A stretch of DNA of 33,368 nucleotides from an uncultured Ignavibacteriota bacterium (GTDB taxonomy: Bacteria; Bacteroidota; Ignavibacteria; Palsa-1295): contig CAIUMP010000036.1 in NCBI GenBank assembly GCA_903900335.1, positions 1 to 33,368 of the forward strand, written 5' to 3'. Shown here piece by piece: positions 92-20,696 of this stretch. Made by a program: the position numbers and the translations under genes. Position 1 is the first letter of the stretch; each line of letters starts with the position of its first letter. The notes beneath the pieces are model-generated. The model made no database searches. It saw nothing but the letters and a program-made list of their open reading frames with translations, and was not told where the DNA came from.

Positions 92-3025
92 ATGAAGCCC
101 ATAGCCTCTACCACCGATTGGCGCGATTACCGCCGCGACACCAACCGCGCTGGCATTCAATCCCTGCCCCGCGCCAACACTCCACTCAACGAGCGTTGGT
201 CCACACGACTCGGTGGCGGCTATCAAACCATTCAGGTCATTCACGATCACACCAATCCTTCGCGCTATCATGATCTGCTGATGGTCGATGCTGGCGGCGT
301 TCAGCGCGTTAGTCCCGAAGGAGAATTTCGCTGGAAGACGCCACCCTTCGGGGCGCATGGAATTTCCTTTGTCGGTGATCTCGATGCCGATGGTCGTCTC
401 GAAATCCTCACCACCAACGGACGCGAAGTAATCATCCTCTCCGCCGAAGACGGCGCATTTCTCTTCCGCGATTCCATCGGCCCGCCATTCTCCTATGGCA
501 CATACGCGGGGATGATTCAATCGCATCCGTTCTTCCGAGATACGAGGACTACTAAGGCGAGTCCGTATCAATTCCTCGTCCCCTGCTTCTCCCACAAAGA
601 AGTGTTGATGTATGATTGCTCCGGCGGCGCTGAGAACACCCGCATCCTCCATCGGCTTTGGATGGACGACGGCTTCCATCCTTCTATTGTGATTGGGGAT
701 GTTAACAAAGATGGGATTGATGAAATCGTCATCGCGCGATTGGGTGGCGTCTATGTATTCTCGCCGCATTCCGGCGAGATGATCTCCCAAACGCTTTGGA
801 ACTCCGACGCCGAGCGCCGCCGGAACTACGGGCAATTCCAGCTTTCCGACATTGACGACGACGGCGATCTCGAAGCCATCATCCTCAGCGACAAAGTAAC
901 GCGCCACATCGCCGTGCTCGATAACGACGGCAAGGGCAACTTCGCACCGCTCTGGGATCGCTTCATCGAGCACATCTATCCGAACGACACAACGGAGTTG
1001 CGTTACACCGCGGAATCCATCAAGTGCTACGACGGGCTCTGTGAGATGGAAATTGCAGTTAGCATCTTTAATGGGCGCGGAGATAATCGGTGGTACACAG
1101 AGATTCTATCTGCGACGACTGGAGCGATCAGGGATGAACTTCCCGACCAATATCTTCGCGGTGTTCAGAGCCTCAAGATGGACGACCTCTATCAACTCTG
1201 TCTCAGCAAGGAAACCAGTCGTACCCCATCCTATTTCAGCGAACTCTCCATTTACGATCCCTTCGACGGCATAACGCAATGGACCTACCCCAGCGGCCAC
1301 TTCGCGGAAAGAACAATTCATGCACATCCCATTCGCTCTCAATTCAAGCCCGATGCCTTCTCTTCGCACGAGATTTGGCAATCATTGGATGAAGAGCGGC
1401 CGTCATTGTTTGTCATATCACCGCATGGCGAACTCATCGTGCTTCACGGAGATTGCACGATGACCGAAACGGGCTTCCAATCGGATACGCGATTTATTAT
1501 CTCGGAGATCGACAACGAAGAATTGTATGTCAGTCGCGCCGACGGAGATATTATCAAAGTCGTTGGTGAGAACAGTTGGAGGGCACCAGCAACAATCAAA
1601 CCATACCACTCTTCAGGCTATCACCTTACAACCGAAGCACACATCGCCGCTCGGCCAGCACCAGTGCCCTCGGTCTTCTGGTCACAACCAGTAGCAGCGA
1701 GTAATCAAACTGTCATTCCCGCGAACGCGGGAATCCATCCCCCGGACCTGGATTCCCGCATTCGCGGGAATGACAATGCGAAGACCGGAGACGATGATCC
1801 TAACAACGACAGCACGTGCTACCTCGCCGTCCCGGACTTCGCCAACAACATTCATCTCTTCCGCGCAGATGTCGAAGGCGCACTCACACCCATCAAGACA
1901 ATCAAAGGTCGTTCGCGTCTCGGATACGACAACGTCTTTCACTCCTCAACCTTCATCGAAACAACGAGCGGCTCGCGCCTCATTGTTGTCGATGACGAAG
2001 GCCTCGATCACTCGCGTCTCTCCCTTTACTCGCTTGATGGTGAATATGATCGCTCCTACAACTTCCCCGATCTCCCCGCCTCCATCCCCGGCAATAGAAT
2101 CGGATGCTACGATTGGCTCTACTTCCCGCATTCGCGCGGGGAAGCGATGTTCGCGAGCTTCTATCAGTCCCAATCCATGAATAGCGAGTGCTCGCTTGCA
2201 TTTTTGTTGGAGAGTGGTGAGATACTCTGGCGAGTCAATCAATATGGCGAAGGAGATTACGGTCGCGGCATTGGCCCGTGGGGCGCATCTGCCTTGAGAA
2301 TTGCGGGCGACAAACAAATCGCCGTATTCTGCGCAAAAGATACGCTCTGCCAAGTGGATCTCGAAACCGGTGCATTCTGGTGCGAGCCGAAGCTCCTAAC
2401 CGACTACACCGCCGAAGCCATGAAAGCCGACGACCGATTCGTCACGCAAGAGCTATCAAAGAAATCCTCTATCGACGATCCCTTCACCGCCTACGGCACA
2501 CCCATCATCCACAACAACGACATCATCATCGCCGGCTCCTTCGGCGGCTTCGGCATCATCCGCCAAAGCTCCGACAATGCTTCCCCTTCATACTTCATAC
2601 TTCATACTCAATACTTTCCCCTCTGGTGGCACGTCGCATCCTTCGGCGATGTCCTCTACCGAATGCCCGGCATTGGCGACATTGATGGCGACGGTCGCAT
2701 CGAGTTCGGACAAGGTCACGCTGACGGTACATTCGGCATCTACGATTACGAAACCGGCGCTCTGCGGGACTCGCTTGAGCTCCATTCCATCGCCACCGAC
2801 GTGCTCACGCTCGACTTCAATTCCGATGGGCAAATGGAGTTCATCCTCGGCACAAACGATGGCCGACTTCTCGCAATCGGACATGACGGCGAAAAGTGTA
2901 GTATCTTAGCAGAACATTTCATCGGCGCAGGCATGGGTTCGCCCATCGCCGCCGATCTCAACGGCGATGGCACGTCCGAAATCTACGTCGTCTCCGCCGA
3001 TGGGATGATGCGATGTTTTGGATAG
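92..3025 (+). CDS. FG-GAP/VCBS-repeat beta-propeller protein
   Basis: This 977-residue protein is built from FG-GAP/VCBS-like propeller blades with calcium-loop motifs of the DxDxDG type. They are visible at D96 (DLDADG), D203 (DVNKDG), D253 (DIDDDG), D863 (DIDGDG), D908 (DFNSDG) and D955 (DLNGDG). Such propellers usually act outside the cytoplasm, as binding or scaffold domains or as polysaccharide-lyase-like proteins. No enzyme motif is recognised. No signal peptide is seen from the ATG at 92: the N-terminus begins directly with a 'DWRDYRRDTNRAG' stretch that normally follows a signal peptide in PQQ/FG-GAP proteins. The true start may therefore lie upstream, or the repeat ending at 69 may have replaced it. 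Residues 540-562 are encoded by an in-frame palindromic repeat. The protein is first in a colinear run with a glycosidase-like gene, which suggests carbohydrate binding, but that is inference. Confidence 0.8.
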   Translation: MKPIASTTDWRDYRRDTNRAGIQSLPRANTPLNERWSTRLGGGYQTIQVIHDHTNPSRYHDLLMVDAGGVQRVSPEGEFRWKTPPFGAHGISFVGDLDADGRLEILTTNGREVIILSAEDGAFLFRDSIGPPFSYGTYAGMIQSHPFFRDTRTTKASPYQFLVPCFSHKEVLMYDCSGGAENTRILHRLWMDDGFHPSIVIGDVNKDGIDEIVIARLGGVYVFSPHSGEMISQTLWNSDAERRRNYGQFQLSDIDDDGDLEAIILSDKVTRHIAVLDNDGKGNFAPLWDRFIEHIYPNDTTELRYTAESIKCYDGLCEMEIAVSIFNGRGDNRWYTEILSATTGAIRDELPDQYLRGVQSLKMDDLYQLCLSKETSRTPSYFSELSIYDPFDGITQWTYPSGHFAERTIHAHPIRSQFKPDAFSSHEIWQSLDEERPSLFVISPHGELIVLHGDCTMTETGFQSDTRFIISEIDNEELYVSRADGDIIKVVGENSWRAPATIKPYHSSGYHLTTEAHIAARPAPVPSVFWSQPVAASNQTVIPANAGIHPPDLDSRIRGNDNAKTGDDDPNNDSTCYLAVPDFANNIHLFRADVEGALTPIKTIKGRSRLGYDNVFHSSTFIETTSGSRLIVVDDEGLDHSRLSLYSLDGEYDRSYNFPDLPASIPGNRIGCYDWLYFPHSRGEAMFASFYQSQSMNSECSLAFLLESGEILWRVNQYGEGDYGRGIGPWGASALRIAGDKQIAVFCAKDTLCQVDLETGAFWCEPKLLTDYTAEAMKADDRFVTQELSKKSSIDDPFTAYGTPIIHNNDIIIAGSFGGFGIIRQSSDNASPSYFILHTQYFPLWWHVASFGDVLYRMPGIGDIDGDGRIEFGQGHADGTFGIYDYETGALRDSLELHSIATDVLTLDFNSDGQMEFILGTNDGRLLAIGHDGEKCSILAEHFIGAGMGSPIAADLNGDGTSEIYVVSADGMMRCFG
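1711..1775. repeat. Palindromic repeat family B, copy 1, inside a coding sequence
   Basis: This is a 65-bp near-perfect palindrome with outer arms TGTCATTCCCGCGAA and TTCGCGGGAATGACA and inner arms GGGAATCC and GGATTCCC. It lies in frame within the propeller gene and encodes residues 540-562 (a VIPANAGIH...DSRIRGND peptide). A related copy sits in the gap at 13067-13145. The reading frame continues intact on both sides. Confidence 0.9.
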
Positions 3026-5472: not shown

Positions 5473-6348
5473 GTGCGCAACATCCGCATCGCCAGCGTCT
5501 CGTTTCTGATGGACGACACTCCGCACACCGTCGAGTCGAATCTCGAACGTGCCTCGCATTACATTCAACAGGCCAGCGAGGCTGGAGCCCAGATCGTATG
5601 CCTGCCCGAGACCGTCACGACGAATGGCATTCCACAACCGCAACATAGCATCGAAGACGCGTGGAATCCCTTCTTCGCCGCGTTTGCACAGCTCCATTCC
5701 ATTGCTATCGTCGCACCGTTTTTTGTTAAGGAGGGCACACGCTGCTTCAATCAAGCAACCGTCTTCGATTCGAACGGTGCGATCGCCGGTGTCTATCGCA
5801 AGGTGCAGCCAACTGGTTGGGAAGCGAAGTTCGTCACTCCGGGCGATGAGTTTCCCATCATTGATATTGGTATTGCAAAGATCGCCGTGATGATCTGCAT
5901 GGACATCTACTTCCCGGAGATCGCACGCATCTATGCGATGAAAGGTGCAGAGATACTCTTCTGGCCTACGACCACGCACGGCCCTACGCAAAGCGGACTC
6001 GAAGCGCAACTCCGCTCGCGCGCCATGGATAACTCGTTGTACATCGTCGAATCCAATCTTGCGGGACATCCGCCGTACGCGCCGTACAACGGTCGCTTCT
6101 ATCCCGGCAATGCGCGCCTTGTGGATCATAGCGGCGACATCATTGCACAAACAGGCCGCCGCGCAGGCCTCGCCATCGCCGATATCGATCTCGACGAACG
6201 CCGCACGACTTCGGATGTTCTCCTCATTCAATCCCCCGACGACACCCGAGCCGATCTCGAATCACTCGTCCGCATGGATCTGTTCGCGAAGGAGTACGCG
6301 GCAATCGCGAAGAATCAGACACGACATTACGACACACTAACGAAGTGA
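5473..6348 (+). CDS. Carbon-nitrogen hydrolase (nitrilase superfamily)
   Basis: This is a complete 291-residue nitrilase-superfamily protein, which hydrolyses a non-peptide C-N bond (amide, carbamoyl or nitrile) through a covalent thioester. The catalytic triad is readable: Glu46 in 'CLPET', Lys110 in 'YRKVQPTGWE' and Cys142 in 'VMICMDIYFPE'. The family's extra Glu is plausibly E117. It starts with GTG at 5473, the base after the preceding TAA, so it is probably translationally coupled to the glycosidase-like gene. Its substrate is unknown. Omega-amidase, N-carbamoyl-amino-acid amidohydrolase or aliphatic amidase activities are all possible. Given the adjacent transporter and amino-acid-type enzymes, deamidation or decarbamoylation of an imported compound is a reasonable inference. 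Confidence 0.88.
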   Translation: MRNIRIASVSFLMDDTPHTVESNLERASHYIQQASEAGAQIVCLPETVTTNGIPQPQHSIEDAWNPFFAAFAQLHSIAIVAPFFVKEGTRCFNQATVFDSNGAIAGVYRKVQPTGWEAKFVTPGDEFPIIDIGIAKIAVMICMDIYFPEIARIYAMKGAEILFWPTTTHGPTQSGLEAQLRSRAMDNSLYIVESNLAGHPPYAPYNGRFYPGNARLVDHSGDIIAQTGRRAGLAIADIDLDERRTTSDVLLIQSPDDTRADLESLVRMDLFAKEYAAIAKNQTRHYDTLTK

Positions 6349-6365
6349 CACTCCCCAACCAATAC

Positions 6366-6473
6366 GTCATTGCGAGGAGGCCGAAGGCCGACGAAGCAAT
6401 CCGTTGTCAAGGAACGACATACTCCACAACAACGGATTGCTTCGTCACCCCTCCGGGGTTTCCTCGCAATGAC
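6366..6473. repeat. Palindromic repeat family A, copy 3
   Basis: This copy is nearly identical to the one at 3046-3154. It runs from GTCATTGCGAGGAGGCC to TTTCCTCGCAATGAC, with the same internal GACGAAGCAATCCGTTG foldback. It occupies the gap between the nitrilase gene and the ABC substrate-binding protein gene. The outer ends are mutually inverted, so either strand can fold into a long hairpin. Confidence 0.9.
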
Positions 6474-6504
6474 TTGATCTTCTTACTGAGTGCCAAATTA
6501 TAAC

Positions 6505-7797
6505 ATGACCTTACTTCGAAGACTCTCGCTTCTCCTCCTCCTTCTCACAACCGCCTCAAGCTGCGGCAAGAAGGACACCGCCACCTCCGGCAAAACGCAC
6601 ATCAAGCTCGTCCATTTCTATCTCGATCAGAAGGACACCTGGCAGCACGATGTCGTCGATCCATTCATGGCGGCACATCCCGGCATTGAAGTCGAAGTCG
6701 AAGCCATTCCGTTCGGGCTCTACACAACGAAGATCCTCTCCGCTGCGGCGAGCGGCTCTTCCGTCGGGGATGTCGTTGTGATAGATGATTGGTTTGGTCA
6801 AGAGTTGTTCAAACGCAATTACACCATTCCGCTCGACTCCCTCTTCCACCGCGATCTCAAAGAAGACGACTTCTACTCGCAGTTCTTTACTGTTTGGCGA
6901 ATGGGTAACGTTGCTAACGCACCGCTGATGGCAATGCCTGCATCCGGCGGCGTAACCGCGTTGTTCTACAACAAAGACCTCTTCGATAAGGCTGGCGTCA
7001 ATTACCCCGATTCAACGTGGACGTACGCCGACTTCCTCACCGCCGCCCGAAAGCTCACCAACAACGCCACCGATCCTCATCAAAAGAACTGGGGCGTGCT
7101 CTTAGATGACGGGCTCTTCACTGGAATCGACACCTACATCTACTCCAACGGCGGTAAGATCTTGTCCGATGACAAAACGCACAGCGCAATGATGGAGCCA
7201 GCAACAATCGCTGCTGTGCAATCGTATGTCGATCTCATCCAAAAGGAGCACGTCGCGCCCGCCCCCGATCCATCGCAACTGCTCGGGCAGAAGTTCATGC
7301 TCGGTCACGCCGCGATGATGCTTCATGCGGATGTCGCGAAGACGGAGCTTGCACATGCTACATTCAAGTGGAATGTCGCCGCCCCGCCGAAAGGAAGCGC
7401 TGGCCTCTTCGATCGCCAGTATGGACAAGCCTTCGGAATCACCAAGACCTCCGAGCATCCCGATTCTGCGTGGGAGTTGATCAAGTGGATCGTCACAGTC
7501 CCCGGGAAGAAGGGGATCAATGAGCTATTCAATTCTGCGATGCCGCTCAATCGCGCACTCGCAAACTCGCCGGAGTTTCTTGAAGGCGCGCAGAAGTGTG
7601 ATAGACGTGCGCTGCTCGACATCAATAACTCCGGTCATGTCTTCACCCTTATCACACCAGGCTGGCAGGAGTGGCGCGACCACGGCTTCACACCCAACAT
7701 GCAGGACATGCTCGCGGGCCGTAAGTCCGTTCACGATGGCTGCAAAGCGATTGACGAGAAGATCAACGAAGTGCTTTCACGAAGCCGAGCACAATAA
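6505..7797 (+). CDS. ABC transporter extracellular substrate-binding lipoprotein (sugar type, family 1)
   Basis: This is the solute receptor of a CUT1-like ABC importer, about 430 residues, the usual length. From ATG 6505 the N-terminus is MTLLRRLSLLLLLL, followed by a lipobox-like TASSC with Cys20, which indicates a lipid-anchored exported protein. An in-frame GTG at 6490 would add five residues. I prefer the ATG because it gives a compact signal peptide, but neither start has a clear ribosome-binding site. Family features include 'FYNKDLFDKAGVNYPDSTWTYADF', 'GKFMLGHAAMML'-like central segments and 'AWELIKWIV'. These are seen in maltose, glycerol-3-phosphate and oligosaccharide receptors (MalE/UgpB type). 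The two permease genes follow at once. The ligand cannot be read from sequence; a sugar or glycoside is likely. Confidence 0.9.
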   Translation: MTLLRRLSLLLLLLTTASSCGKKDTATSGKTHIKLVHFYLDQKDTWQHDVVDPFMAAHPGIEVEVEAIPFGLYTTKILSAAASGSSVGDVVVIDDWFGQELFKRNYTIPLDSLFHRDLKEDDFYSQFFTVWRMGNVANAPLMAMPASGGVTALFYNKDLFDKAGVNYPDSTWTYADFLTAARKLTNNATDPHQKNWGVLLDDGLFTGIDTYIYSNGGKILSDDKTHSAMMEPATIAAVQSYVDLIQKEHVAPAPDPSQLLGQKFMLGHAAMMLHADVAKTELAHATFKWNVAAPPKGSAGLFDRQYGQAFGITKTSEHPDSAWELIKWIVTVPGKKGINELFNSAMPLNRALANSPEFLEGAQKCDRRALLDINNSGHVFTLITPGWQEWRDHGFTPNMQDMLAGRKSVHDGCKAIDEKINEVLSRSRAQ

Positions 7798-7802
7798 TTA
7801 TA

Positions 7803-8663
7803 GTGAAGTCTCGCTCCGCCTATCTGTATTTGCTCCCGGTGCTGATCGGCTTCACGGTCTTCACGCTTGGGCCGGTGATGGCATCCCTCTATCTATCACT
7901 CACACATTACGAGATCGCCGCCGCGCCTGTCTTCGTCGGTCTCCTCAACTACAAGCAGCTTCTCAATGAACAACTCTTCTGGCAAGTTGTTGGCAATACG
8001 TTCTATTACGCGTTCCTTTATGTGCCGCTTAGTGTCGGTGTGTCGCTCGCTCTCGCGTTACTATTGGAGAAGAAAATACGCGGCATCACGTTCTTTCGCA
8101 CAGTCTATTTCCTGCCGGTCGTTACTTCGATGGTTGCTGCCGCAATCATTTGGACGTGGATTTACAATGGCGACATCGGCCTGCTGAATTATCTCCTCTC
8201 CCTCTTCGGCATCAACGGTCCCAAGTGGCTGCAAAACCCGCACTGGGCACTGCCGGCTATCGCGCTCATGAGCGTGTGGAAGAATGCCGGTTACAACATG
8301 ATGATCTTCCTCGCCGGACTCGCAAACATCCCCACCGACTACCACGAAGCTGCGCGGCTTGATGGCGCATCCTCGTTCGCGCGCTTCCGTGAGATCACGT
8401 TGCCGCTCATTTCTCCGGTCCTCTTCTTTGTGCTCGTGGTCACCACCATCGGCGCGTTTCAGGTTTTCGAACAAACGTATGTGATGACGAATGGCGGACC
8501 GGGTACATCCACGCTCACGCTCAGCTATTACATCTGGCAAACTGCCTTCTCCTTCTTCAATCTCGGCTCCGCGAGCGCGCTGGGCTATCTGTTCTTCATT
8601 ATTGTGCTAGTGATGACAGCAATCCAATTCCAAGTGCGCAAACGATGGGTGTATCAATCGTAA
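7803..8663 (+). CDS. ABC sugar transporter permease 1 (MalF/UgpA type)
   Basis: This 286-residue integral membrane protein has about six hydrophobic segments (first near residues 7-29) and the cytoplasmic EAA loop at about 180-200: 'YHEAARLDGASSFARFREITLP'. That loop is the docking site for the ABC ATPase. Together with the second permease it should form the inner-membrane channel of the importer. It starts with GTG at 7803, five bases after the receptor gene's stop. Its TAA stop codon is itself the first three bases of the heptamer repeat that separates it from the next gene. No ATPase gene occurs anywhere in the window, so a shared MsmX-like ATPase encoded elsewhere is expected. Confidence 0.93.
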   Translation: MKSRSAYLYLLPVLIGFTVFTLGPVMASLYLSLTHYEIAAAPVFVGLLNYKQLLNEQLFWQVVGNTFYYAFLYVPLSVGVSLALALLLEKKIRGITFFRTVYFLPVVTSMVAAAIIWTWIYNGDIGLLNYLLSLFGINGPKWLQNPHWALPAIALMSVWKNAGYNMMIFLAGLANIPTDYHEAARLDGASSFARFREITLPLISPVLFFVLVVTTIGAFQVFEQTYVMTNGGPGTSTLTLSYYIWQTAFSFFNLGSASALGYLFFIIVLVMTAIQFQVRKRWVYQS

Positions 8664-8716
8664 CGAGTAACGAGTAATGAGTAACGAGTAATGAGTAACG
8701 AGTGATGAGTAACGAG
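8661..8716 (+). repeat. Eight tandem heptamers (TAAYGAG) spanning a stop-start junction
   Basis: Eight contiguous 7-bp units read TAACGAG, TAACGAG, TAATGAG, TAACGAG, TAATGAG, TAACGAG, TGATGAG, TAACGAG. The first unit contains the stop codon of permease 1. The seventh contains the ATG (8705) of permease 2, and the GTG at 8702 overlaps its edge. The TAATGAG units carry further ATGs at 8677 and 8691, in the two other frames. Each of these is followed by the same codons for M-S-N-E and then a stop. Confidence 0.95.
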
Positions 8717-9571
8717 TCGATATTGGCTGGTGGAACGAGGTGGCGCAAAGTCGCTCGTTACTCGTTACTCGTTACTCTCGCACTCATCATGCTCGGGCCG
8801 TTCCTGTGGATGATAGTAACCTCGCTCGAATCACCCGAAGTGCTCGTGCAATTCCCGCCGCAGTTCATCCCGCGAAATCCCCGCTTCTCGAACTACTCGG
8901 AAGTCTTCGGCGAGCTACCCATCGCAACATTCTTCTTCAATTCGATTAAGATCTCTGTCCTCGGCACAATTGGCGAGGTAATCGCCGCCTCACTCGCCGC
9001 CTTCGCATTTGCGCGCATGGAGTTTCAAGGAAAGAAGTGGATATTCAGTCTGCTGCTTGCAACGATGATGATCCCATTTCAGGTGACGATGATCCCCGTC
9101 TATATGATCATGCGTTCGCTCGGCTGGCTGGATTCTCACGCTTCGCTCATCATCCCGCATTTCTTCGGCGGCGCATTTGCATCCGGTGCATTCGGAGTAT
9201 TTCTATTGCGTCAGTTTTTCGAATCTATTCCGAAGGAATTAGAAGATGCATCGCGCATTGATGGCGCAAGCCGCTTCCGCTTCTTCGTTACTATTCTTCT
9301 GCCGCTATCGAAGCCCGCACTCGCTGTGCTTTCGCTCTTCGTCTTTATGGGCATTTGGAATGACCTGCTTACACCGGTCCTCTTCCTTTCCACAGAAGAG
9401 AAGATGCCACTTACGTTTGGTCTCGCCGTGCTCGAAACCGTGCAGCACAATTTCCGCTACGATCTTCTCATGGCCGGAACGCTCCTAAGCGTCGCGCCGA
9501 TTCTTCTTCTCTATGTGTTTGCGCAACGCTATGTAACCGATGCGTTCTTGCGAGCGGGAGTGAAGGGATGA
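8702..9571 (+). CDS. ABC sugar transporter permease 2 (MalG/UgpE type)
   Basis: This 289-residue membrane protein is the second channel subunit. Its EAA loop is at about 178-200 ('PKELEDASRIDGASRFRFFVTILLPLSKP'), and it has a MalG-like ending 'LLYVFAQRYVTDAFLRAGVKG'. It has about six membrane segments, the first near residues 17-37. The start is either GTG 8702 or ATG 8705; both lie in the heptamer repeat, and the ATG looks more natural. Codons 18-24 are made of three inverted copies of the same heptamer, so the start region of the mRNA can fold against its own early coding sequence. Partners are permease 1 and the lipoprotein receptor upstream. Confidence 0.93.
   Translation: MMSNESILAGGTRWRKVARYSLLVTLALIMLGPFLWMIVTSLESPEVLVQFPPQFIPRNPRFSNYSEVFGELPIATFFFNSIKISVLGTIGEVIAASLAAFAFARMEFQGKKWIFSLLLATMMIPFQVTMIPVYMIMRSLGWLDSHASLIIPHFFGGAFASGAFGVFLLRQFFESIPKELEDASRIDGASRFRFFVTILLPLSKPALAVLSLFVFMGIWNDLLTPVLFLSTEEKMPLTFGLAVLETVQHNFRYDLLMAGTLLSVAPILLLYVFAQRYVTDAFLRAGVKG
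8754..8774 (+). repeat. Three inverted heptamers (CTCGTTA) inside the permease 2 coding sequence
   Basis: Three back-to-back CTCGTTA units are the exact reverse complement of the TAACGAG unit repeated at 8661-8716. A 21-bp RNA stem, perfect apart from a G-U pair, is possible between this tract and the upstream array. Because 7 is not a multiple of 3, the units are read in three frames, encoding parts of the sequence RYSLLVT in the first membrane segment. Confidence 0.9.
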
Positions 9572-13066: not shown

Positions 13067-13145
13067 TGTCATTCCCGCGAAAGCGGGAATCCCGGCCCTG
13101 GCGGATCGCCAAACGATCTGGATTCCCGCTTTCGCGGGAATGACA
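13067..13145. repeat. Palindromic repeat family B, copy 2
   Basis: This 79-bp palindrome starts TGTCATTCCCGCGAAAGCGGG and ends CCCGCTTTCGCGGGAATGACA, with an extra central foldback GGCGGATCGCC. It belongs to the same family as the coding copy at 1711-1775 but has a different centre. It lies in the 252-bp gap between the flavoprotein gene and the aminotransferase gene. The rest of that gap (13146-13286) is AT-richer and may hold the aminotransferase promoter, although I can point to no definite promoter boxes. Confidence 0.9.
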
Positions 13146-18095: not shown

Positions 18096-18917
18096 TCACT
18101 CGCCAATGAAATAGCGTAGTGAAACCCCCGCGAACAGAACCCTCGTATTCCAATTGCTATAGTGGTCAACGATTGTCAATGGCTCGTCGAAACCGGCGGA
18201 GAGCTCAGCGTTAAGCGATTTCGAAAAGGGAATGTCACACGTCAAGGCACAGCGGACTCCCAGAACAAGAGAATTCGCCTCGGGCGCATTCACCGTGAGC
18301 GTGTCATTCGTCACGGCCCGGGGATTTGACACATCCCCACTGGATTGAACAGTAGTGATTGTCTTCAGGAGGGTTGGATGAGGCAGGTAGGAAATTTCAG
18401 GCCCTACCATAAGTCCCAGACCAACCGGCCTTTCCCCCGCCCAGAAGTTGTACTTGATGAAGGCGTCCAGAGACCAGTAATGCAATTTAGCCAACTGACT
18501 GGCTTCTACGGAGCTGTCATACACCACGCCGTTCTTCACGCTCTTGGCGGAAGGATTGCCACAGTTCCATTGGCTGAAGTACGCGGATCGAGAATCGTAC
18601 ACTACGTGCGCAACGAGTGAATAGTGATTGCGAGTGTTTGAATCGAGGAAATATTCCATCGCAATACCACCCCAGCCGTCTGTCCCAGAGCCACCCGTAA
18701 CACCTGCACACGTCTTTCCCGGCCAAAGCAGGACGGGATCAAGTCCGTACAGAACAATATTTCCTCCCCCAACAACCCCCAGCCAAAACCCCCGACGACT
18801 CGCCGTCGTATCATCACCGACCGTTTGCGAGGCAGCAGTGCCGCTCAGGAGAATAATGGCAAGAACTGAGAGTGTAGCAGTTCGACACTTCGTAGCTATG
18901 AGCATGAAGACAATCAT
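18096..18917 (-). CDS. Outer-membrane beta-barrel-like protein, paralogue 1
   Basis: This exported protein of 273 residues has an N-terminal signal peptide (hydrophobic 'TLSVLAIILLSGTAASQ'). Its mature part has alternating hydrophobic strands and the C-terminal end 'VLFAGVSLRYFIGE', typical of outer-membrane beta-barrels. Shared blocks with its two neighbours are 'RRGFWLGVVGGGN', 'VYDSRSAYF', 'SVKNGVVYDSS', 'HYWSLDAFIKYNF', 'GLMVGPEISYLPHPTLLKT', 'DIPFSKSLNAEL' and 'YSNWNTRVLFAG'. The start could also be the Met five codons in. Function is unknown; it may be a small porin-like or structural barrel. It lies six bases after paralogue 2 and is likely cotranscribed with it. Confidence 0.75.
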   Translation of the reverse strand: MIVFMLIATKCRTATLSVLAIILLSGTAASQTVGDDTTASRRGFWLGVVGGGNIVLYGLDPVLLWPGKTCAGVTGGSGTDGWGGIAMEYFLDSNTRNHYSLVAHVVYDSRSAYFSQWNCGNPSAKSVKNGVVYDSSVEASQLAKLHYWSLDAFIKYNFWAGERPVGLGLMVGPEISYLPHPTLLKTITTVQSSGDVSNPRAVTNDTLTVNAPEANSLVLGVRCALTCDIPFSKSLNAELSAGFDEPLTIVDHYSNWNTRVLFAGVSLRYFIGE

Positions 18918-18923
18918 TGATGG

Positions 18924-19715
18924 CTAATTATCGACGAAGTACCGGAGCGACAGCCCCGTGAAGACGGCACTCGTTGACCAATTGCTATAACGATCCACTT
19001 TCGTCAGCGGCAAATCATAGCCCAGCAGGAGCTCTGCATTGATCACCCTGGAGAACGGCACATCGCACGTCAGAGCACCGCGAATCGCGAGCCGGATCGC
19101 GTTCACTTCTGGTGCGGGTGCCGTAATCTCGTCATAAAGGACTTCCATAGGGCTTGCCGCATTGCCGCTTGAGTGATAGGTGGTAAACGTCTTTAACAGA
19201 GTCGGTTGCGGCTGGTAGCCAATAGAAGGACCGAGTTGAAGTCCAAAACCCAATGGGGCCTCGGAAGCCATAAAGTTATGTTTGAAGGACAGATTGACCG
19301 ACCAATAATGAAGATTAGCTGTTTGCGATGCATAGGTGGTGCTGTCGAATGATACCCCATTCTTCACACTCTCCAGCCCTGGGATGTAACAATCAGTGGT
19401 TCTGAATTCAGCAGATCGAGAATCGTACGATGCCTGAACCGTGAGGACATTCTGGTTGTGACGTCCAAGCGGATATTCCATCGCCAAACCGATGAAGCCG
19501 TCTCTGCCCGATCCATCGTAAGCATTGACGCACGTCTTGCTTGCCATGATCGGGTATTTGTCGGAGGCATAACTAACGAAATTACCTCCGCCAACAACTC
19601 CGATCCAAAATCCCCGACGACTCACCGCCGTCTCCTCACCAACCGTTTGCGATGCAGCCGTGCCGCTCAGGAGAACGAGCGCAAGAGTAACGAGAGTAAG
19701 TGTGAGCGTATTCAT
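18924..19715 (-). CDS. Outer-membrane beta-barrel-like protein, paralogue 2
   Basis: This exported protein of 263 residues has signal peptide 'MNTLTLTLVTLALVLLSGTAASQ' and a barrel-like mature part ending 'AVFTGLSLRYFVDN'. It is the closest relative of paralogue 1: 'LLSGTAASQTVG' is identical, and 'SRRGFWIGVVGGGNFVSYASD', 'YDSRSAEF', 'YWSVNLSFKHNF' and 'GLQLGPSIGYQPQPTLLKT' correspond block by block. The short spacing and close similarity point to a recent tandem duplication. Two Cys residues in the 'KTCVNA' and 'TDCYIPG' segments also occur at matching places in paralogue 1 and may form a disulphide. No specific function is recognised. Confidence 0.75.
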   Translation of the reverse strand: MNTLTLTLVTLALVLLSGTAASQTVGEETAVSRRGFWIGVVGGGNFVSYASDKYPIMASKTCVNAYDGSGRDGFIGLAMEYPLGRHNQNVLTVQASYDSRSAEFRTTDCYIPGLESVKNGVSFDSTTYASQTANLHYWSVNLSFKHNFMASEAPLGFGLQLGPSIGYQPQPTLLKTFTTYHSSGNAASPMEVLYDEITAPAPEVNAIRLAIRGALTCDVPFSRVINAELLLGYDLPLTKVDRYSNWSTSAVFTGLSLRYFVDN

Positions 19716-19811
19716 GGTGTTCGTTCAATCATTTATCACTCATACAACATGTAGCAAGTAGTGAGACTATAGAGAGCCATGGAGCCGCTCAACAAGCCCC
19801 TATCAAATCCA

Positions 19812-19847
19812 AAAGCCCTCGCGATCATTACTGACCGCGAGGGCTTT
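19812..19847 (-). terminator. Intrinsic terminator after outer-membrane paralogue 3
   Basis: A 12-bp perfect stem AAAGCCCTCGCG / CGCGAGGGCTTT has a 12-nt loop. On the minus strand it is followed by TTGGATTTG, and the stem itself ends in a T run. It lies 48 bp after the stop of the paralogue 3 gene, in the 180-bp gap before paralogue 2. The rest of the gap (19716-19811) is probably the promoter of paralogues 2 and 1. Confidence 0.75.
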
Positions 19848-19895
19848 CAAAAAACTGCAAACCGAACGTACGGCCTGGGCAGCTACATCATACCG

Positions 19896-20696
19896 TTATC
19901 CACGGATGAAGTAGCGGAAGGCAATACCGGCGAAGACCGCAGAGGCCTTCCAGTTGTAATCGGTATTGACTTTGGTGATCGGGAAATCATATCCAACGAT
20001 CGGCGTGGCGATCCACTCCTGCGTGAACGGCACATCGTAGGTAGCCGCCGCACGAAGCGCAAGGCGAATACCGGAAGCGTTCGGAGCAGCCGAAGTGGCG
20101 GTTACTGTCGCAGTTGCCATCGGGCTGGCAGCGTTACCGCTGGAAGCTGTCACGGTGACCGTCTTGTTCAGATTTGCCGTCATCTTGATACCGACCGAAG
20201 GTCCGATCTGGATACCAGGGCCGATCGGGCTCGGACCAGGTGTAAAATTGTACTTGTAATGCAGATTGATCAGCAAGTAGCTGAGATTTGCATCGAGTGC
20301 GGTTGTGACAGAGCCATCATACTCGACACCATTCTTTTTGGTGGGAGTTGCCGGGCTCGAACCGTTCTGCGAAGTGAACTTCGAAGACTTCGAATCATAG
20401 ATCGCTTCGAAGACGATGAAGTTCTGAAGCTCGTTAGCATTGCCAAGTGGGTACTCTAGCGTGAGTCCACCCCAGGGTGCAATGTCCGAACCGTTCTGTG
20501 CTGTAAAGCATGTCTTCTCCGAGTTGAGGATCGGGAAGGCGTCTGTATTGTAGGCTACGAGGTTGATACCGCCGATGGGTCCCACAAGGAATCCTGTCTG
20601 GACGGTCGGCACGAGAACGCTCGTCTGAGCGGAGGCCTGAGTCGTAGCAAGCCCTAAAGCAGCAAGGGCCAAAAGTGCCAGGAGACGATTACGCAT
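19896..20696 (-). CDS. Outer-membrane beta-barrel-like protein, paralogue 3
   Basis: This exported protein of 266 residues has signal peptide 'MRNRLLALLALAALGLATTQASAQ' and a mature barrel-like domain ending 'ASAVFAGIAFRYFIRG'. It shares the plan of paralogues 1 and 2: 'FLVGPIGGINLVAYNTDAFP', 'KTCFTAQNGSD', 'WGGLTLEYPLGN', 'IYDSKSSKF', 'KKNGVEYDGS', 'INLHYKYNF', 'PGIQIGPSVGIKMTANLNKT' and 'DVPFTQEWIATPIVGYDFPITKV'. It is more diverged than the other two are from each other, and its own terminator separates it from them. Function is unknown. Confidence 0.78.
   Translation of the reverse strand: MRNRLLALLALAALGLATTQASAQTSVLVPTVQTGFLVGPIGGINLVAYNTDAFPILNSEKTCFTAQNGSDIAPWGGLTLEYPLGNANELQNFIVFEAIYDSKSSKFTSQNGSSPATPTKKNGVEYDGSVTTALDANLSYLLINLHYKYNFTPGPSPIGPGIQIGPSVGIKMTANLNKTVTVTASSGNAASPMATATVTATSAAPNASGIRLALRAAATYDVPFTQEWIATPIVGYDFPITKVNTDYNWKASAVFAGIAFRYFIRG

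Follow-up and report, generated by a model that had tools for sequence, protein, structure and literature searches.

An ORF-less heptamer foldback, probably related to PF05635-bearing elements, at the stop/start junction of two sugar permease genes in an Ignavibacteriota bacterium

The heptamer repeats between two permease genes of an uncultured Ignavibacteriota bacterium were analysed in a window of 33,368 nucleotides (the whole stretch of contig CAIUMP010000036.1 studied here). The feature is probably an ORF-less foldback of the same class as the heptamer elements that carry a PF05635 gene, and it landed on the junction between the stop codon of permease 1 and the start codon of permease 2. 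The original prediction regarded the repeats as a locally duplicated translation start. This description does not hold, as the array is a member of a hairpin family spread over the genome and related to the PF05635 elements (hereafter IVP elements, after the Pfam name 23S_rRNA_IVP), and is absent from the junction in five congeners.

Permease 1 of a sugar ABC transporter (UgpA/MalF-like; PF00528, E 6e-18; UgpA model, E 1e-41) is encoded on the plus strand at 7803..8663, and permease 2 (UgpE/MalG-like; PF00528, E 4e-19) at 8705..9571 on the same strand. The sugar transporter genes at 5473-9571 (a binding protein and the two permeases) lie beside a CN-hydrolase gene, and no ATPase gene was seen nearby. 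The 5' arm of the element occupies 8661..8717, with eight TAAYGAG-type units at 8661-8716 (five TAACGAG, two TAATGAG and one TGATGAG). Its first three bases are the TAA stop codon of permease 1, the C-terminus of which is equal in length to those of the congener orthologs. As was predicted, eight units join the permease 1 stop to the permease 2 start; only seven of the eight fit TAAYGAG, the exception being unit 7 (TGATGAG). The three ATG codons at 8677, 8691 and 8705 each have a frame of their own, and the first two were correctly read as M-S-N-E minigenes, ATG AGT AAC GAG TAA (8677..8691) and ATG AGT AAC GAG TGA (8691..8705), both on the plus strand. The TAA of the first minigene overlaps the next ATG (TAATG at 8689-8693), and the TGA of the second overlaps ATG 8705 (TGATG at 8703-8707). 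Only ATG 8705 is open into permease 2, and 8705..8707, within the 5' arm, is the likely start codon of this gene, with GTG 8702 and TTG 8723 as alternatives. Thus, the stop codon of permease 1 and the start codon of permease 2 are both located within the element.

The arms are separated by a loop of 36 nt (8718..8753), in which no ORF and no recognisable IVP remnant was found. The 3' arm, (CTCGTTA)3 followed by CTC, is located at 8754..8777 on the plus strand; the three inverted units of the original prediction (8754-8774) are confirmed and extended to 8777. This arm is read as codons of transmembrane helix 1 (TM1) of permease 2 (ARYSLLVTL). Permease 2 has the extra N-terminus MSNESILAGGTRWR, and most congener proteins begin with MKxxRY or a similar sequence. 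An Rfam search of the window gave no match. Other repeats and related genes are also present in the window. A second heptamer array (CTTCATA, 4.4 units) is located at 2586-2616 inside the ORF 92-3025, and the arms of a congener's IVP element (L119) are made of CTTCATA as well. GTCATTCCCGCGNNNGCGGGAATC, which we take to be a dRS3-like palindromic repeat, occurs in two inverted pairs, at 1711-1775 and 13068-13144; the former lies within the ORF 92-3025, the reading frame of which continues through it. On the minus strand, three related ORFs in tandem at 18096-20696 are outer-membrane-type paralogues by appearance.

The RNA of 8640-8800 is predicted to fold with -71 kcal/mol (z = -7.1), and none of 200 shuffled sequences folded as well. 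In a 250-nt context, the predicted stem pairs 8685-8721 with 8750-8780 by 31 base pairs. According to the same fold, ATG 8705 is paired with a predicted probability of 0.99, in agreement with the proposal that the inverted units form a stem over the start region. The start codon of permease 2 is therefore predicted to be buried in the stem, and the stem may have a coupling effect on permease 2 output or may repress it. A chance origin of the array was rejected according to this shuffle test and the genome-wide excess of the pattern (64 versus 2 matches; see below). An intrinsic terminator was also rejected, because the 3' arm is followed by CTCTCGCACTC and there is no U run after the stem.

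The orthologous permease junction was compared in five congeners, in which permease 2 is 75-80% identical. The junction is compact in these genomes and contains no array. In four of the five, the two genes overlap at ..CCATGA.. or ..CAATGA.., the stop codon of permease 1 sharing bases with the start codon of permease 2, and permease 2 starts with MK; this ancestral ATG is gone in the source genome. As the orthologous sites are empty, the array at the permease junction is an insertion, judging from the sequence comparison. TM1 of permease 2 has the same length as in the congeners despite the inverted array in its codons, and the K and RY..LL residues are in register with theirs. Thus, the 3' arm may be native TM1 sequence over which the 5' arm was copied, not inserted DNA. 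An insertion with a deletion of the same length is a possible alternative for this arm. No obvious target-site duplication was observed at the permease site or at the ftsY-mutL site described below, in a comparison with congeners that are too diverged for this purpose. Movement of the element was not observed either.

The three-unit TAACGAG pattern gave 64 matches at about 15 dispersed places in the genome, compared with two matches for the reversed control. In the sequence stretches taken around the hits, the arrays are mostly located at gene ends, and TAACGAG arrays are also present in four of six congeners. Close pairs of opposite orientation always run TAACGAG and then CTCGTTA, facing inward (8/8; in the source genome the pair at the permease junction, four further sites and the IVP pair; one site each in G001 and G002). 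By inspection, the loops of five hairpins of the source genome share no sequence. A simple MITE, which should have shared internal sequence, was accordingly rejected. Other intergenic sites at which the source genome has TAACGAG hairpins are occupied in congeners by hairpins of this heptamer around different loops, by a TAGGGTA hairpin or by palindromes of unrelated sequence. For example, one orthologous site (L263, compared with L264 in G002, L266 in G003 and L265 in G001) has TAACGAG, TAGGGTA or non-heptameric hairpins depending on the species. Repeated colonisation of such sites or a rapid change of the repeats would explain this variation. Arrays of 18 heptamers were observed at the ends of two contigs of the source genome (C25, L010 2969-3094; C26, L011 8089-8214), and they probably belong to a single long hairpin with unequal sides at which the assembly broke.

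The relationship to IVP elements was found between ftsY and mutL of the source genome, where (TAACGAG)6 and (CTCGTTA)5 arms enclose an intact ORF of 125 residues. The product belongs to PF05635 (23S_rRNA_IVP, a four-helix bundle; E 1e-32) and is related to XCC0516 (PDB 2gsc; E 1e-12), a protein of solved structure in which four-helix bundles assemble into a homopentamer (PMC4990558). A PF05635 ORF thus lies between the arms in this relative and not in the window copy. FtsY ends within the array (VTSNE-stop), like permease 1. At the same junction, G006 has an ORF-less hairpin of the TAACGAG heptamer, and G001 and G002 have short remnants; G003 and G005 have no element, and G004 has a short spacer without arrays. 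The hairpin of G006 indicates that ORF-less and IVP-bearing forms share one orthologous site. The fourth IVP copy of the source genome (L107, G000:C4:110915-111205) has three internal stop codons between TTCATCT-type arms and is a decaying element; IVP genes can thus decay while the arms remain. Because the loop of the window copy has neither an IVP ORF nor a remnant and the hairpin loops are unrelated, we infer the descent of ORF-less hairpins by deletion from IVP elements from the one orthologous site, together with the shared heptamer and orientation.

A wider comparison of IVP elements covered loci chosen for carrying a PF05635 gene, 89 of them from the class. A further 80 named loci represent many phyla, among them Chloroflexota, Nitrospirota, Cyanobacteria, Acidobacteria, Planctomycetes, Omnitrophota, Armatimonadetes, Verrucomicrobia and Desulfobacterota. 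The flanks were scored for self-similarity at periods 4-12, and the removal of relatives of more than 75% identity left 152 non-redundant loci. Arrays of period 7 flank the gene on the left in 56 of 148 loci and on the right in 56 of 151, and control segments at 700-930 bp gave 2/142 and 0/144. Period 8 was detected in 7 and 5 flanks, and each remaining period in 0-1; the IVP loci with period-8 instead of period-7 arms include L144, L145, L157, L084 and L143. An inverted repeat joins both flanks in 118 of 148 loci, compared with 0 of 134 distant flanks. When flanks were swapped between loci, the inverted-repeat score was reached by 2% in the class and by 18% in the named set, in which many loci share a heptamer. 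The left and right units are reverse complements in 26 of the 31 two-sided class loci (2.1 expected), and the same count was obtained for the 31 two-sided loci of the named set from many phyla (8.2 expected). The 5' arm has the consensus [GA]TNN[TC]GA, and GTAACGA of the window fits it.

The heptamer differs between loci of one genome. Heptamer similarity tracks the IVP protein and not the host (partial Mantel r = 0.43; reached in none of 2000 permutations, with a permutation maximum of 0.14). GC and pairs from within one genome served as controls for an effect of host composition (4.11 versus 3.93 matching bases). This result is as expected if the gene and its arms travel together. According to the survey, the IVP genes between matching heptamer arms across phyla suggest an overlooked class of small genetic element.

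The original prediction further proposed that slippage by one unit changes which ATG is used and tunes the ratio of the two permeases. The three ATGs in three frames, and arrays elsewhere in the genome that reach at least 18 units, are in line with such a contingency locus. In the simulation, however, loss or duplication of any of units 1-6 did not switch the frame, and ATG 8705 stayed in frame with permease 2. Only when unit 7 was lost or unit 8 was altered did ATG 8705 disappear. Once it was lost, the other ATGs of the array were blocked by stop codons, and only TTG 8723 remained. As changes in units 1-6 are frame-neutral and permease 2 cannot be started from another ATG of the array, the slippage switch was rejected. 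The arrays are also dispersed over unrelated genes, and we regard a contingency locus as scarcely credible. A selected RNA structure, such as an mRNA stabiliser, a processing site or an attenuator that sets the permease 1:2 stoichiometry, would explain why the predicted stem is strong and buries ATG 8705. Junctions in the genus often hold some hairpin at the same site with a differing sequence, heptameric or plainly palindromic according to the species. Against this, five congeners have no hairpin array at the permease junction, the absence of a U run after the stem speaks against a terminator, and the orthologous sites are perhaps merely the only tolerant spaces. Selection for such a structure is very unlikely in our judgement.

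The array may instead be a simple tandem heptamer repeat, grown by slippage and comparable to the short tandemly repeated repetitive (STRR) sequences of cyanobacteria or Beggiatoaceae, with the inverted copy produced by template switching in the permease gene, and unrelated to IVP elements. Among the long simple repeats of many bacterial genomes, heptamer arrays are the most frequent (PMC4679880). The retained length of TM1 and the K..RY..LL residues in register with the congeners are the pattern expected from an overwriting of native codons, and the other hairpins have unrelated loops. However, inward-facing TAACGAG arrays also enclose an IVP gene of the source genome, and in a congener the site of this gene is occupied by an ORF-less hairpin. 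All eight close pairs face inward, and at the orthologous permease junction the element is absent, not shorter. A simple repeat of this kind is thus rather unlikely, though it deserves some weight.

In the most probable explanation, an ORF-less foldback of the IVP class, with a (TAACGAG)8 arm and a (CTCGTTA)3 arm on either side of the 36-nt loop, was inserted at the compact permease stop/start junction, as the empty sites of the congeners show. As read from the sequence, its heptamers now supply the TAA of permease 1, two stop-start relays (TAATG and TGATG) and the ATG of permease 2. A long stem between the arms is predicted to cover this ATG in the transcript. Permease 2 would most likely be translated by ribosomes that come from permease 1 and re-initiate stepwise at the M-S-N-E ATGs, so that its translation would be coupled to permease 1 via the overlapping minigenes. 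The arms of one element match but differ between loci; thus, copying with the hairpin as template, or an action of the IVP protein on its own heptamer, probably keeps them alike. The element would be carried along, not selected as a phase switch.

Several known systems resemble the element. RNase III excises the 23S rRNA intervening sequences (IVS) with S23p, the arms of which are complementary, and in Coxiella burnetii tandem heptamers of strain-variable copy number are located just upstream of the S23p ORF (PMC4990558). The window element is likewise small with complementary arms, which are predicted to form a closing stem, and its ftsY-mutL relative has a PF05635 ORF inside. Unlike the IVS, the window copy lies between two permease genes and not inside a 23S rRNA gene, and it has no ORF; its arms are heptamer arrays with locus-specific units. 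Intergenic heptamer arrays are also formed by the GGGAATC repeats of Xanthomonas, often as inward pairs, and by the GGGGA(T/C)T repeats of Nostoc (PMC4692102). Two close inward arrays dispersed over the genome, as in Xanthomonas, are found in the window family. The heptamers are different, however, and that paper treats G-quadruplexes, its text being without four-helix or intervening-sequence proteins. It also describes the convergent GGGAATC pairs as generally not associated with mobile elements (PMC4692102), which counts against our explanation. The TAACTGA repeats of Beggiatoaceae, Cyanobacteria and Bacteroidetes are short heptamer arrays, many of them immediately upstream of start codons, for which horizontal spread and a repeat-binding protein as a mobile element were suggested; they are direct repeats with only one inverted pair, and no protein is named (PMC4679880). 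Avd of the diversity-generating retroelements is a structural homologue of the PF05635 fold (PMC10053308), whereas the ftsY-mutL element holds one ORF without a reverse transcriptase or a template repeat. In the literature covered (subscription papers and preprints were outside the scope), only the Coxiella paper joins PF05635 or four-helix-bundle genes to heptamers (PMC4990558), and we provisionally consider the general link between PF05635 genes and heptamer arms to be unreported.

PF05635 proteins and inverted heptamer arrays may constitute one autonomous kind of minimal genetic element in many phyla, in which the arms are kept or copied by a protein with recognition of its own heptamer. 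The ORF-less foldbacks would be its non-autonomous relatives, and many unexplained heptamer repeats (STRR, TAACTGA and GGGAATC) its traces. We put this forward tentatively, as a conjecture with the balance somewhat against it. The STRR of heterocystous cyanobacteria are heptanucleotide tandem arrays dispersed between genes, as in the window family, and we know of no link between them and PF05635 genes. To our knowledge, there is no accepted origin for bacterial heptamer arrays, which have been noted since the work on cyanobacterial STRR, and no known role for the PF05635 protein, which is abundant outside rRNA. Each protein lineage keeping its own heptamer ties the arrays to PF05635 and would give a common, testable explanation for both. 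The window provides an example of such an element on a start codon, where it can donate a new stop and a new start and may bury the start in a stem.
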